From positions 1-36,446 of the forward strand of contig CAMWSQ010000003.1 in NCBI GenBank assembly GCA_947177025.1: 36,446 nt of DNA. Reading direction: 5' to 3'. Origin of the DNA: an uncultured Mollicutes bacterium (lineage in GTDB: Bacteria; Bacillota_I; Bacilli_A; Acholeplasmatales; Anaeroplasmataceae). The first letter of the stretch is position 1, and each line of letters begins with the position of its first letter. Under the pieces are notes generated by a model. It had not been told where the DNA came from. It searched no databases and saw only the letters and a program-made list of their open reading frames with translations. Shown in pieces: positions 9,075-16,311 of this stretch. The translations under genes were made by a program, and so were the position numbers.

Positions 9075-11624
9075 CTATTCTTCCTTTAGCTCATATAAAA
9101 GCTTTAGCGCTTCTAGTGGAGTTAAAGTGTTTACATCAATTTCATCGATTCGCTTTTGTATCCGTTCTGCACGTGTCTCCTTGATGACTTCTTCCTTAGA
9201 ATCATATTCTAAGAAATTAAATAAATCTAGAGATTGGATAGATTGGGTATTTGATTCTGCTTCTAAGGAATCTAAAATCATTTTACTTCTTGCAATTAAA
9301 GACTTTGGTAATCCAGCAAGACTTGCTACATTAATACCATAGCTCTTATCTGTTGGACCATCTAAAACCTTATGTAAGAAGGCTACCCCATCCTCTGTTT
9401 CTTTTGCTTCTACATGAACATTTTTTAAACGCTTTAATTTTTGGTCTAAAACTGTTAATTCATGATAATGCGTTGAGAATAAAGTGACACAGCCTATGCG
9501 CTCATGAACATACTCCAAAATTGCTTGAGCAAGAGCCATACCATCATAGGTGGCAGTTCCTCTTCCAATTTCATCAAATAAAATCAAGCTGTTTTTAGTT
9601 GCATTTGTAATTGCATAATTGGCTTCCATCATCTCCACCATAAAGGTAGATTGACCTGATACCAAATCATCTGATGCACCAATACGGGTATAAATTGCAT
9701 CAAACACCATCAAATCAGCAGATTTAGCTGGAACAAAGGAGCCAATTTGAGCAAGAATCGCAATCGTTGCAAGCATACGCATATAGGTAGATTTACCACT
9801 CATATTTGGTCCTGTAATCAACATCATATTATAGGTGTTGATATCCACATCATTTACAATATATCCCGATTTTAGTATTGTTTCTAGAACAGGATGTCTT
9901 CCATCCACAATGGTTATTGATCGCTTTGTGTTAAACGTTGGTCTTACATAGTTTTGTTTTGTAGCAACATCACTTAAGGAAATATAGCAGTCTATAGTAG
10001 CCAGCTCATCTGCTAGATTCTGTAAACTTGTGATATACCTTGAAGCAATCGCACGCAACTCAACAAAAATGTCATATTCAATAGAAACAATTTGCTCATT
10101 TGAATGAAGGACAATGTCCTCATATTCCTTTAATTCCTTTGAAATAAAACGCTCAGCGTTTGCTAAGGTTGCACGTCTCTCATAGCCAATATTCTCTGGT
10201 AAGCTTGAAATAGCTCCCTTAGAAACCTCAATATAATAGCCAGTTACACGATTATAGCCGACCTTTAGAGTTTTAATTCCTGTAAGCTCCTTTTGGCTAA
10301 TTTCATAGTTTAGTATCCATTCTTTACTATGATTTAAAATGGATTTGATTTCATCAAGTTTAGGATTATATCCCTCCTGAATCATCCCACCTTCTTTTAT
10401 AGATAAAGGTGGATTTTCTACAAGTGCACGATTTAAAACATCATATAAATCCCTATGAGCATCCATCTGCTCTGCATAAGCCTTAGCTGCAGGAATATGT
10501 AAAGAGGAAATAATTTCCTTAATTTCTGGGATATGCTTTAGAGATTTTCTTAGCCATACTAAATCCTTTGCATTTGCATTTCCTGAGGCTATTCTTCCGA
10601 TGATTCTTTCTAGGTCATACACATTCTTAAAATACTCTTTTAATTCAGATTTTTCCAAATAATGAGCATTAAAGCATTCCACAAAGTCTAATCTTTGACA
10701 AATTGCGTTCAAATCACACAATGGTTTATCTATCCATTTATGCAGCATTCTTGATCCCATAGCTGTCTCACAATGGTCTAAATGCCATAATAAAGAACCG
10801 GACCTATTATTATATCTTAGGGTCTCGCATAGCTCTAAATTTTTCTTTGTAAAAGCATCAAGATGTAGATATTCTTGATGAATATAGTTTTGAATTTTCT
10901 TTAAATGCGTAGGCATCTGTTTCTTTGTTTCAATAAAATAATGTAAAATGACACCTACTGCAGGATAATATTCCTCTTCTAATTCAGAAACAATTGGTAA
11001 TAATTCTGCTGGAATAGAATAATCGGCAACACGGGATAATACAATTTGATTTTTCTTTACAAAGGAGTCTAATGTAGAATTGGTATAGCCTTCAGATATA
11101 ACAATTTCCTTAATATGCAAGGAAAGAATCTCATTGGCCAATACTTCAAAATTATTTAATTTTGTAAGATATCCTTCTCCTGTAGATAAATCACAATAAC
11201 ACAAAAGATATTCTCGCTTCACTTGGAGAATACCTGCAATGTAATTATTTTCTTTGTCATTTAATCCAGAATCCTGTGTACCTGGTGTAATAATTTTTAC
11301 AACACCACGCTTTACGATTCCTTTGGCTTCCCTAGGGTCTTCTACCTGTTCTACAATAGCTACCTTATAGCCTTTTGAAATTAAACGCTCTGCATAAGGC
11401 TCATAGGCATGAAAAGGGACTCCACACATAGGAACACGTTCCTTTACCCCTGCATCCTTTCCTGTTAATGCAAGTTCTAGTTCCTTAGCACCTGTATGGG
11501 CATCCTCAAAAAACATTTCATAGAAGTCGCCAACTCTATAAAACAAAATTGTGTCTGGATAATCTTTTTTAATTTCTATATATTGCTCCATCATTGGAGT
11601 ATATTTTAATTCTTTTTCTTTCAT
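9075..11624 (-). CDS. mutS: DNA mismatch repair protein MutS
   Basis: FYRVGDFYEMFFEDA; TGPNMSGKSTYMR; FDEIGRGTATYDG; STHYHEL. Confidence 0.98.
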   Translation of the reverse strand: MKEKELKYTPMMEQYIEIKKDYPDTILFYRVGDFYEMFFEDAHTGAKELELALTGKDAGVKERVPMCGVPFHAYEPYAERLISKGYKVAIVEQVEDPREAKGIVKRGVVKIITPGTQDSGLNDKENNYIAGILQVKREYLLCYCDLSTGEGYLTKLNNFEVLANEILSLHIKEIVISEGYTNSTLDSFVKKNQIVLSRVADYSIPAELLPIVSELEEEYYPAVGVILHYFIETKKQMPTHLKKIQNYIHQEYLHLDAFTKKNLELCETLRYNNRSGSLLWHLDHCETAMGSRMLHKWIDKPLCDLNAICQRLDFVECFNAHYLEKSELKEYFKNVYDLERIIGRIASGNANAKDLVWLRKSLKHIPEIKEIISSLHIPAAKAYAEQMDAHRDLYDVLNRALVENPPLSIKEGGMIQEGYNPKLDEIKSILNHSKEWILNYEISQKELTGIKTLKVGYNRVTGYYIEVSKGAISSLPENIGYERRATLANAERFISKELKEYEDIVLHSNEQIVSIEYDIFVELRAIASRYITSLQNLADELATIDCYISLSDVATKQNYVRPTFNTKRSITIVDGRHPVLETILKSGYIVNDVDINTYNMMLITGPNMSGKSTYMRMLATIAILAQIGSFVPAKSADLMVFDAIYTRIGASDDLVSGQSTFMVEMMEANYAITNATKNSLILFDEIGRGTATYDGMALAQAILEYVHERIGCVTLFSTHYHELTVLDQKLKRLKNVHVEAKETEDGVAFLHKVLDGPTDKSYGINVASLAGLPKSLIARSKMILDSLEAESNTQSIQSLDLFNFLEYDSKEEVIKETRAERIQKRIDEIDVNTLTPLEALKLLYELKEE

Positions 11625-11633
11625 ATAATCCTC

Positions 11634-12779
11634 TTATTTAAACATATGAAGAATCAAAAATATTGAGACAAATAGACCAAGAACGACAACAAGAGTAATC
11701 GTTGGAACAATGAGCTTGGTCCACCTAAAATTCAGTCTTTTCTTTTGAAAATAAGGATTTTCATCTAAATCAACTTCCTCATTTCGATTCGGTTTTTGAG
11801 TAGAAAGAGTTTCTGCATTTGTTACTGGTGGTAGAGGCTTTGTTTCCTGTAAAACAGTAAATGGAGCCTCCTCCTCTTGAGGAGAGGCTAAATCGCCAGA
11901 TTTAGGCTCAGCTGTTGTATCTAATGTAATGAATTTTGCAGTCTCATTCTCTTCTGTTTGCATTACGCTTAATTGAGCAGTTTCTTCTACAGAATCTGGC
12001 TCTTGAGTTTCATCATCAAGTTCAATGACTTCTTCCTCTGGTTTGGCTTCTAAATGCTCAGTTACAGCAAGACTTGAGGCAACAATCAATTCTTCTTTTG
12101 GTTCAAATTCTGGATCATAGGATTCATTTGGCAAATCAGAAAATTCTTCTATAACGTCTTCATTAGCTTCTATAGATTCAGCTTCATAAGGAAGATCTAT
12201 GCTTGTATCTAAAGCTATAGAAAGTGTTTCTAAAGAATCTTCTATTGGTTCATAAGAAACATCTTCTTTTTCCTCTACAGAAGAAAGATTTTCAAGCATA
12301 CTCTTAATTTGATCAATTTTATCAGCTAGAAGCTCTGATTCTTCTAAAGAAGGTTTTTCTTCCTTAGGTTCAACAACAGGTTCTTCTTCTATTTGAGATT
12401 CAATTGTATCCTCTAAATCTTCCTTAGAAAGTTCAATAGCATCCTCATTTTCTGAGTCTAGTTCCTCAGCTTTTGTTGGTTCAAAATTGTAGACATCATT
12501 TGAATCTTCATTGCTTTCTTGTAAAACTTCTTTTGGTGATTCCTCTAGAGATTCTATACTCTCAGGTACAGACCCTTCATTATCTAAAACTGGTTCTTCA
12601 GCTATAGGCTCTTCTTGTAAAGAAGCTGGCTTGGATTCAGTGCGATGTGCAGCACGAATTGCTTCAATGCGTCTTAAAATTTCTTGAAGATATTCGTCAT
12701 TGCCTTTTTTGCGGGGAAGAGGATCCTCTTTATCCTTCGATATTACTTGCTCTTTTTTTTTTGTGTAGGTGCTGATGTA
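11634..12779 (-). CDS. -1-frame ORF: acidic Glu-rich region plus C-terminal transmembrane helix; probably the 3' half of the 12743..13900 gene reached by frameshift. The 12299 Met in the ORF track is an internal Met
   Basis: Open from just after TAA at 12780-12782 to TAA at 11634. No in-frame ATG/GTG/TTG between 12779 and 12299 on manual translation. C-terminus TKLIVPTITLVVVLGLFVSIFLILHMFK. Confidence 0.75.
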   Translation of the reverse strand, partial: YISTYTKKKEQVISKDKEDPLPRKKGNDEYLQEILRRIEAIRAAHRTESKPASLQEEPIAEEPVLDNEGSVPESIESLEESPKEVLQESNEDSNDVYNFEPTKAEELDSENEDAIELSKEDLEDTIESQIEEEPVVEPKEEKPSLEESELLADKIDQIKSMLENLSSVEEKEDVSYEPIEDSLETLSIALDTSIDLPYEAESIEANEDVIEEFSDLPNESYDPEFEPKEELIVASSLAVTEHLEAKPEEEVIELDDETQEPDSVEETAQLSVMQTEENETAKFITLDTTAEPKSGDLASPQEEEAPFTVLQETKPLPPVTNAETLSTQKPNRNEEVDLDENPYFQKKRLNFRWTKLIVPTITLVVVLGLFVSIFLILHMFK

Positions 12780-13900
12780 TTATCACGTTTTTTAGTTTCT
12801 GTTTTTGGCATTGGCATATTAATTCCATGACTAATTGCCAACTTAGCAGTTTCAGCATCTACATTTAAGTATGGTAAAAGCTTCTCAATGATATCAGCTA
12901 CTATATCTTCTTTTGCAGCTTTCTTTCTTGGTTTTGGTTCTTCTTCATGATATTCTTCTAAAGACTCAATAACTGCCTTGTCATCTGCTTCAAGATAGAT
13001 TACTTTCTTAGCTCTACCACGCTTGAAGTTATCGATAGCATCAAGGTCAACTCTAAACTTTAATGGTTCTGCAATTTCTCCGCCAATAATTGTATTTGCT
13101 TCAATTGTAGGATATTTTGCTTGCTTAAGAAGGAATAAAATCAAATTGATTAATTCTTCCTTTTTCATTAAAGATGAAATACCTAAAGCCTGTAATTCAC
13201 AGAACTCATTTAATTGAGTAATTGTCATTGCATTCAATTGTCTTTGTAAAACCAAAGTCAATTTTCTTCTAGCCTTCATCATTTCCTTGACATAGACTAA
13301 AAGATCTTCTTTCTTTAAACGAGCTGGGACGTCAAATCCATATTTTTTAGCAAAAAGACGGATTTCCTCTAAAGAGAAAGAATTTTTTAACAATGCTTCT
13401 AACTTAGTCTTTGGATAAGCATCAAATTCTTTTGAAGTATCTAGTGTAACTTCATTGATTGCTTGAGAAAAAGATACAAAGCTTTCTAATTTATATTTTT
13501 TCGTATTAATTAAACGTGTAATTTCTCCATCTTGTAAGCCAATACCTACATGGTTGAAAATTAAAAGTTTCCATAAATTCTTGCGATATAAATAGAAATC
13601 CTCATCAGTTCCTACTTTTTCAAATAAGCTTTGAAGTTGAAACTCTGTAAAAGATGCATAGGATTCAAGTTTTGCAAAAGCGTCTCTTGTTAAAGAATGA
13701 GAATTCAAAGTCTTAATTCTTTCATTCAAAGCACTCACTAATGCCATTGCATTGATTTTTCTTGGAATCTTTGAATCACGTTCCATGAAAAATTTCTTGG
13801 TTTGGTCTCCACTTAATAAAGCTAATTTTGAAACTATGGTCTCCAAACCCATTCTTCTATTAAAAATCACAACAACTTCTTTTTCTGCTATATAATCCAT
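12743..13900 (-). CDS. Hypothetical protein with tandem SAP/Rho_N-like helical modules and Lys-rich C-terminus
   Basis: LLKNSFSLEEIRLFAKKYGFDVPARLKKEDLLVYVKEM and AMTITQLNEFCELQALGISSLMKKEELINLILFL look like tandem LxxLx(n)G..KK.EL modules; ends QKKKSK at an A10 tract. Confidence 0.75.
   Translation of the reverse strand: MDYIAEKEVVVIFNRRMGLETIVSKLALLSGDQTKKFFMERDSKIPRKINAMALVSALNERIKTLNSHSLTRDAFAKLESYASFTEFQLQSLFEKVGTDEDFYLYRKNLWKLLIFNHVGIGLQDGEITRLINTKKYKLESFVSFSQAINEVTLDTSKEFDAYPKTKLEALLKNSFSLEEIRLFAKKYGFDVPARLKKEDLLVYVKEMMKARRKLTLVLQRQLNAMTITQLNEFCELQALGISSLMKKEELINLILFLLKQAKYPTIEANTIIGGEIAEPLKFRVDLDAIDNFKRGRAKKVIYLEADDKAVIESLEEYHEEEPKPRKKAAKEDIVADIIEKLLPYLNVDAETAKLAISHGINMPMPKTETKKRDNTSAPTQKKKSK
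12753..12762 (-). promoter_or_regulatory. Candidate slippery site: A10 followed by G, containing A AAA AAG in the zero frame
   Basis: Minus strand ...ACA CAA AAA AAA AAG AGC AAG TAA; -1 reading gives ...AAA GAG CAA GTA ATA TCG AAG GAT... open for ~370 codons. Confidence 0.65.
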
Positions 13901-14048: not shown

Positions 14049-14279
14049 TTACATTGCATCATGTATTGTTCTTGCAATAACATCATCCTGCTGTTCCTTT
14101 GTAAGCTTGATGAAGTTTACTGCATATCCAGATACTCTTATTGTAAGCTGGGGATATTTTTCTGGATGCTTCTGTGCATCAAGTAGTGTCTCACGATTAA
14201 AGACATTGACATTTAAATGATATCCACCATTTTCCATGTATCCATCTAGCATTTGAACTAAATTATCAATTCTAGACAT
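14049..14279 (-). CDS. Stand-alone glycyl-radical domain of pyruvate formate-lyase (C-terminal part of a split PFL)
   Basis: 76 aa: [51 protein letters not shown]; own ATG with SD-like AGGAAAGGAAG about 9 nt upstream. Confidence 0.9.
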
Positions 14280-16311
14280 GACTAGCTTCTTCCTTTCCTA
14301 AGGATTGTGGAGTTATAGAGAATGTATTTGAAATACCATCTCTTGAATATGCATAAGGGATTTTAGCTACACTTTCTAAAGATGCTAGAGCCCCTTTGGC
14401 ATCTCTTCCATGCATTGGATTTGCACCTGGTGCAAGGGGTTCTCCTGCTTTTCTTCCATCTGGTGTATTTCCTGTATTTTTCCCATAAACTACATTCGAT
14501 GTGATTGTCAGAATTGACATTGTAGGAATAGACTCTCGATACGTTGCATGCTTCTTAATTTTGGTCATAAATGTCTTAACAAGCCATACTGCTAGCTCAT
14601 CTACTCTGTCATCATTATTCCCATATTTTGGAAAATCTCCTTCAATTCTAAAATCAACAATTACACCTTCCTCATCACGTATTGGATAAACCTTGGCATA
14701 TTTAATAGCTGATAATGAGTCTGCTGCACAGGATAATCCTGCAATTCCTGTAGCAAAATATCGTGTTATTTTAGAGTCATGTAGTGCCATTTCGATGCTT
14801 TCATAGGCATATTTATCATGCATATAATGAATGAGATTTAAGGTGTTCACATAGACCCCTGCAAGCCATTCCATCATAGTTTCATACTTTTGAAGGACTT
14901 CATCAAAATCTAATGCATCTTCTCCATGAACTCCTTCAAACTTAGGTGAAACTTGGAAATGTTTTTTTGTCTTTTCATCAATGAGTAGTTCATCCTTTCC
15001 CCCATTTAATGCATACAATAAACACTTTGCAAGATTCGCTCTAGCTCCAAAGAATTGCATATCCTTTCCAACACGCATTGGAGATACACAGCAGGCAATA
15101 CAATAATCATCTCCCATTTCAGGACGCATTAAGTCATCTGATTCATACTGAATGGAGGAAGTTTTTATGGAAATTTCTGCACAAAATTTTTTAAAATTTA
15201 TTGGTAGATTTTTACTCCAAAGGATGGTTAAATTTGGTTCGGGAGCTGGACCTAAATTTATGAGTGTATGAAGAATACGAAATGCAGTTTTTGTTACTAG
15301 AGTTCTACCATCTATTCCCATACCACCAATGGATTCTGTAACCCATGTTGGATCCCCTGAAAAAAGCTCGTTGTAGGATTGAACACGCATAAATTTGATG
15401 ATACGTAATTTCATAATGAAATGATCAATCAGCTCTTGTGCTTCCTTTTCTGTAATTCTTTTATTTTGTAGGTCTCTTTCAATGTAAATGTCTAAAAATG
15501 TTGAATTTCTTCCAATAGACATTGCTGCTCCATTTTGTTCTTTGGTAGCTCCAAGATACCCAAAATATAAGGCTTGAATGGCTTCCTTCGCTGTTGTTGC
15601 TGGCTTAGAAATATCACAATTGTAGATTTCAGCAAGCTTCTTTAAATTTTTTAATGCTCGAATTTGTTCAGATAACTCCTCACGCTCCTGAATTCTTTTT
15701 TCCGTCATTTCTCCATCGATCATTTTTTTGTCTAATTCCTTATGCCGAATGAGTTCATCTACACCGTATAAGGCAACTCTTCTATAGTCACCCACAATTC
15801 TACCTCTTCCATAGGAATCAGGTAAACCTGTCAGGATATGTGCTTTTCTACAGGCACGCATTGTTTCTGTATAAGCATCATATACACCATCATTATGTGT
15901 TTTACGATATTTCGTAAAGATTTCTTTCACTCTATCACTGACCTGATACCCATACATTTCGCAGGCAGAAACAGACATCTTAATTCCTCCATAAGGCTGA
16001 AGAGAACGCTTAAATGGCTCATCTGTCTGTAAGCCTACAATCTTTTCTAAAGATGGATCAATGTAACCAGCCTTATGACTTGTCAAACTGGAAACAATAT
16101 CGGTATCCGCTTTTAAAACTCCACCGGCTTCTCGTTCTTGTTTGGATAAGTCTAAAATCTTATTCCACAAGTCTATTGTGTCCTGAGTTGGTCCTTCTAA
16201 AAAGGAACCATCCCCTAAATATGGAGTATAGTTATTTTGAATGAAATCTCTGACATCGATTTCATCACTGCTCCAACGACCAGGATGAAATCCTTCCCAT
16301 GCTTCTATCAT
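14272..16311 (-). CDS. pflB: Formate C-acetyltransferase catalytic body lacking the glycyl-radical domain
   Basis: Active-site [62 protein letters not shown], then stop TAG at 14272. Confidence 0.95.

Follow-up and report, generated by a model that had tools for sequence, protein, structure and literature searches.

A conserved poly-A run next to mutS may allow one Mollicutes gene to encode a soluble and a tail-anchored protein

In an uncultured Anaeroplasma-like Mollicutes bacterium, a gene located just upstream of mutS contains a run of ten adenines shortly before its stop codon. Programmed slippage on this run is, in our assessment, the likely means by which the gene provides two products, that is a soluble form of ~385 aa and a tail-anchored form of ~755 aa of the same Rho_N-like protein. 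A sequence-only reading of this DNA had suggested that slippage on the A10 run joins the soluble form to an anchored extension encoded in the -1 frame, and this suggestion gains support from the conservation of the site among related species and from the purifying selection that acts downstream of it. The stretch of DNA analysed here, hereafter called the window, comprises 36,446 nucleotides.

Reading frames and predicted products of the gene

The 0-frame ORF occupies positions 12743..13900 on the minus strand, codes for the 385-aa soluble form consisting of a helical domain and a Rho_N-like module, and has the 3' end CAA AAA AAA AAG AGC AAG TAA. The A10 run (12753..12762, minus strand) is read in frame 0 as CAA AAA AAA AAG and contains the heptamer A AAA AAG; the TAA ending the short form (12743..12745, minus strand) lies three codons past the last lysine of the run. 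The -1-frame ORF (11634..12779, minus strand), which encodes an acidic linker and a C-terminal anchor, comprises 381 open codons from 12779 to 11634 and overlaps with frame 0 over 37 nt (12743..12779, minus strand), within which the shift must fall. An initiation codon is missing near its 5' end; the first ATG, GTG or TTG is encountered at position 12299, which is codon 161 when counted from the opening of the frame and codon 152 when counted from the end of the run. The stop of the -1 ORF is separated by 9 nt from the start of mutS (9075..11624, minus strand), the next downstream gene and a conserved neighbour. Thus, the earlier placement of the A10 run at the end of the 385-aa ORF proved exact, and the limits, first start codon and overlap of the -1 frame as well as the position just upstream of mutS were confirmed.

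When one A is added to the message, translation yields a 755-aa product with the C-terminal end FVSIFLILHMFK. Messages with A9, A10 or A12 encounter a stop at most 11 codons from the start of the run, as computed for the window gene. According to the mechanism proposed here, normal decoding of the A10 message would terminate just past Gln-Lys-Lys-Lys and release the soluble protein of ~385 aa. In a fraction of events, a slip would occur on the run and reading would go on in the -1 frame; RNA polymerase adding one A is the most likely slip, and a -1 slip of the ribosome on A AAA AAG may act as an alternative or in addition. The slip would append the acidic linker of 370 codons and the C-terminal transmembrane helix to give the 755-aa form, whose N-terminal Rho_N-like domain is predicted to face the cytoplasm while tethered to the membrane. 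In this way the run would determine how much of the protein is free and how much is tethered to the membrane.

The C-terminal transmembrane segment TKLIVPTITLVVVLGLFVSIFLILHMFK (11637..11720, minus strand) coincides with the hydropathy peak, and a homologous helix ends the fused proteins of related species. Its Kyte-Doolittle peak over 19 residues is 2.72, a measure that nowhere exceeds 1.09 in the 385-aa product, and hydropathy predicts it as the lone hydrophobic helix, placed at the extreme C-terminus with none elsewhere, as is characteristic of tail anchors. Translation of the A11 message and hydropathy therefore agree with the suggested product of ~755 aa bearing a C-terminal helix; the Glu-rich linker was likewise borne out, 30% of its residues being Asp or Glu.

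The window encodes at positions 12893-13900 (minus strand) a confidently modelled helical domain, which lacks a significant match among solved structures and, in the majority of genomes sampled across the order, lies next to mutS. The AlphaFold2 model of this N-terminal domain has a pLDDT of 87.8 and a pTM of 0.82. A Foldseek search of the PDB with the model returned nothing under an E of 0.86, and thus the fold offers no hint of function; a search of the protein against NCBIfam gave no match either. Influenza HA2 was considered as a relative of solved structure and discarded, as the sequence match (E ~0.03 only) was judged to be due to chance. The Rho_N-like helix-extended-helix module (Pfam PF07498) covers residues 221-255 (13136..13240, minus strand). 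The window protein scores 18.9 bits at full length and 24.9 bits when trimmed to the 336-aa domain, the cut-off being 24.9 bits. The assignment made in the sequence-only reading is thus weak for the window protein alone, but firmer at the level of the family, in which 18 of 25 members match Rho_N at E <= 0.1. On the basis of this module, the N-terminal domain probably binds nucleic acids.

On the other side of the gene, pyruvate formate-lyase is distributed over two genes (14049-14279 and 14272-16311, minus strand), one for a 679-aa catalytic part, the other for a 76-aa protein that starts at an ATG of its own and carries the glycyl-radical loop RVSGYAV. This two-gene arrangement, with an overlap or gap of a few nt, was present in 9 of 9 genus genomes examined.

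Conservation of the run and the nature of the proposed slip

A protein search detected the gene in 11 of 11 genomes of the genus (Anaeroplasma-like Mollicutes). It is split in six species, namely the window species (G000), G002, G003, G004, G005 and G007, always at the same site and just upstream of mutS, and forms one continuous ORF in the other five (G001, G006, G010, G008 and G009); since these species are related, they cannot be counted as independent cases. The sequence at the site is C-A10-G in split G000, G002, G004, G005 and G007, and C-A11-T in split G003. In all six split species the 0-frame stop is located 9-22 nt past the run and a -1 continuation extends for 326-372 codons past it. 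The alignment of orthologues, a test set beforehand, accordingly revealed five further species with a split at the homologous A10 or A11 and the same -1 relation. In G003, one AAG to AAA substitution accounts for the A11; a compensating indel was dropped as its origin for this reason.

Fused G001 carries the homologous A10 in frame (GAG AAA AAA AAA ACA), and computed variants of this gene with A9, A11 or A12 produce a short form of 384-390 aa. That is, the long form would be the default in G001 and a slip would yield the short form. G006 and G010 have the fused form and no run, indicating that the short form is not required in every species. Relatives with a continuous ORF had been named in advance as evidence against the idea, and such relatives do exist. 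However, they do not refute it, since they are interspersed with split species in which the run is kept, and since fused G001 keeps its A10 too.

Long A runs are rare in these genomes, which measure 1.2-2.1 Mb each and contain 1-5 exact A10 runs per whole genome. The 11 genomes together have 30 exact A10 runs and three runs of at least 11 A, a few of which are located at contig ends or starts or beside G runs and may be artefacts. Seven of these 33 runs (six A10, one A11) represent the homologous site of the mutS-adjacent gene. When 148 kb of coding sequence from the genus are codon-shuffled with the proteins preserved, ~19 runs of at least ten A per Mb of coding DNA are expected; ORFs bearing A10 were excluded from this set, in which the absence of such runs is therefore given by construction, and the A9 count and the whole-genome counts stand alone. 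For A9, 5.9 runs were expected and none was observed in the 148 kb. A separate observation concerns locus L066 (G007:C39:2121-2132), where an A10 resides inside a 508-codon ORF resembling leucine-rich-repeat proteins. There, a stop follows seven codons past the run, whereas the +1 frame stays open as an ORF of 258 codons, possibly reflecting slippage, a phase-variable gene or a broken gene.

The codons CAA AAA AAA AAG are identical in five split species, and the upstream ORF of the window differs from that of other species with a dS of 1.5 or more, which is near saturation. Elsewhere in the upstream domain of these five species, 20 of 23 invariant Lys columns and five of six invariant Gln columns vary synonymously. 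By simple arithmetic, four invariant codons in a row are expected in ~4 of 10,000 cases if these rates are taken as independent. The site thus combines several properties of slippage sites: a run of about nine or more at a frame transition (A10 in five split species and G001, A11 in G003), selection against long runs otherwise in the coding DNA of the genus, and retention of both the run and the frame relation across species, together with purifying selection downstream.

Alternatively, a -1 shift of the ribosome at A AAA AAG, of the kind known from E. coli dnaX, could by itself generate the long form, the long run being incidental. We consider this doubtful, albeit deserving of attention. A heptamer of the type X XXY YYZ is indeed present in the 0 frame; in all split species but one it reads A AAA AAG, is in the correct frame and has an invariant AAG as last codon. 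G003, however, has A AAA AAA followed by T rather than AAG, and the runs stay at 10-11 A though six suffice. Moreover, a downstream stem-loop is not conserved (z-scores of -0.24, -2.65, -0.95, -1.31, -0.93 and -0.54 in the six split species); a fold common to the six downstream sequences was not found, and one alone clearly beats its shuffles. Inspection by eye of the 40 nt preceding the run in six species revealed no obvious Shine-Dalgarno-like element. Hence, the dnaX-like heptamer noted previously is there and in frame, but dnaX-like stimulators are not conserved. Provided that two products are made, slippage of RNA polymerase is somewhat favoured by these comparisons, because 10-11 A are kept although six would be enough for the ribosomal heptamer, because long runs are otherwise rare, an argument also put forward in PMC1088944, and because a shared stem-loop or Shine-Dalgarno-like element is lacking.

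Phase variation would provide another route to both forms, the genomic run length changing by replication slippage such that the anchored form is ON (A11) in some cells and OFF (A10) in others. Poly-A tracts are prone to indels, and p78 of Mycoplasma fermentans is a published poly-A phase-variable gene, as cited in PMC3711429. Nevertheless, this scenario appears improbable: all six split genomes share one configuration, OFF with the continuation in -1, where a mixture might be expected, the A11 of G003 stems from a substitution and not from an indel, and the predicted features of the product are not those of a surface antigen.

An intact gene whose homopolymer was wrongly sequenced or assembled might be suspected, as all genomes with titled records are metagenome assemblies and five relatives have a single ORF, but is very improbable and was rejected, because the split recurs in six species, several of them with the identical A10 and offset, in records from no fewer than two distinct projects (SC03xx MAGs; an SRR14411256 MAG), and because homopolymers serving as controls are intact, A10 being in frame in the G001 homologue, a serpin-like gene of G004 and a recombinase of G001, and sampled A9 runs leaving the long ORFs around them uninterrupted. 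Cross-species recurrence thus renders unlikely both alternatives that accompanied the original suggestion, i.e. sequencing error and random phase variation.

Coding character and origin of the -1 frame

Comparison of the three closest split species (G002, G004 and G007) with one another yields a dN/dS of 0.22-0.24 in the -1 ORF at a dS of 0.5-0.9; by this measure, the -1 ORF is under purifying selection. Three parts of the -1 sequence are shared by split and fused species, namely a post-junction helix with the pattern L..EIL.KI, an NESY..EF.P-like motif, and NPYF...K together with the terminal hydrophobic helix that comes after it. A common position of a start codon (ATG, GTG or TTG) was not found for the -1 ORF in the six split species: the first one appears 152 (window), 43, 43, 43, 11 (TTG) and 134 (G003) codons in, and in five of the six it is preceded by the conserved L..EIL.KI helix. 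A conserved start of the downstream ORF had been named as counter-evidence by the sequence-only reading; the start places turned out to be unrelated. The view that two separate genes are present, the downstream ORF being self-initiated, coupled at the stop codon or decaying, can point to G054 of the same order, where a helix-less 783-codon form and a distinct helix-bearing ORF with its own Met show that such separation is possible, but is scarcely credible here given the scattered start codons, the conserved helix upstream of them and, as regards decay, the low dN/dS.

Orthologues of the 385-aa protein are encoded by 119 of 160 genomes of the order (about three quarters). In genus-2, the gene is one uninterrupted ORF in all 19 relatives examined, and their proteins end in a hydrophobic helix; in 20 stretches taken from further genomes of the family and order, the majority of full-length copies have a hydrophobic helix near the C-terminus. 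With few exceptions, the anchored relatives examined in the order are followed by a mutS-like ORF. As the relatives across the family and order carry the C-terminal helix in one ORF and precede mutS, the -1 tail probably corresponds to the ancestral anchor, and sequence comparison makes the anchored one-ORF form most likely the ancestral one. Split and fused species interleave in a four-gene tree, in which the placement of G003 is weakly supported, and the state changed at least three times, by gain or loss. A single clade of split species was rejected by the tree (AU p = 0.0003) and ruled out accordingly.

Further arrangements were encountered in the order. G054 (L132, G054:C17) has a 783-codon family protein without membrane helix, followed by a separate Pro/Tyr-rich ORF of 297 codons with a near-C-terminal helix and its own Met and then by a mutS-like ORF. 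G068 has two members, that is an anchored copy before a mutS-like ORF and a helix-less copy of 384 codons elsewhere (L126 G068:C59 and L127 G068:C93), a duplication that parallels the two proposed forms. The family protein of G155 is devoid of the helix. Judged by their gene sequences, the lineages of G054, G068 and G155 have separated free and anchored states in other ways.

Parallels and implications

The best parallel, by analogy, appears to be provided by tssM of Citrobacter and Yersinia, where tssM1 and tssM3 together mirror the split species and G001. In Citrobacter rodentium tssM1, which has A11, the long form arises by slippage at 20-25%, whereas in Yersinia pseudotuberculosis tssM3 the default ORF is long and slippage at 15-25% generates the short form (PMC4256274). 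In both cases, a poly-A run is located near the end of the shorter ORF, and the long form that slippage yields in C. rodentium carries a functional C-terminal domain; slippage and both products were demonstrated, and both products are needed in the case of tssM1 (PMC4256274). In contrast, TssM is an unrelated type VI secretion protein, the evidence for the window gene is comparative, and its run is retained across seven species. Thermus thermophilus dnaX, where transcriptional slippage on A9 gives two products (PMC1088944, PMC5009743), resembles G001 in having an A run in frame with nearby stops in both other frames, but has the long product as default and encodes an unrelated protein without membrane anchor. 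Endosymbiont genes with frameshifts rescued on long poly-A in reduced genomes (PMC5009743) share the AT-rich background and the split ORF rejoined by slippage; however, frameshifts are corrected there, whereas here runs are otherwise rare and the run of the window gene is kept across species. The wider slippage class includes Thermus dnaX, IS elements, Shigella spa13/mxiE and endosymbiont genes (PMC5009743, PMC1088944).

Our literature search, covering few subscription papers, found no published report of slippage in Anaeroplasma or on this mutS-adjacent gene. E. coli dnaX shares the heptamer A AAA AAG in the same register with the window gene. In that case, a -1 shift shortens the product and relies on a stem-loop and a Shine-Dalgarno-like element, whereas the shift proposed here would lengthen the product and neither stimulator is conserved. 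The dnaX gene of the genus itself was dismissed as an internal model, being one ORF without a long A run.

To our knowledge, few conserved non-mobile bacterial genes make two products by poly-A slippage. The chances are about even, from the sequence comparisons, that the conserved slip site serves as a setter of the ratio between free and tethered forms of a nucleic-acid-binding protein, with the run under selection and the short form as default in six species and the long form in one. The natural variants, i.e. split with A10, split with A11, fused with A10 and fused without run, make the mechanism directly testable. Annotation pipelines would probably call such genes two fragments or a pseudogene. 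The gene further points to a membrane-anchored family beside mutS that is uncharacterised although it occurs in 119 of the 160 genomes sampled. If the proposed slippage is true, this would be a poly-A dual-product gene in a Mollicutes chromosome, kept over near-saturated synonymous divergence.
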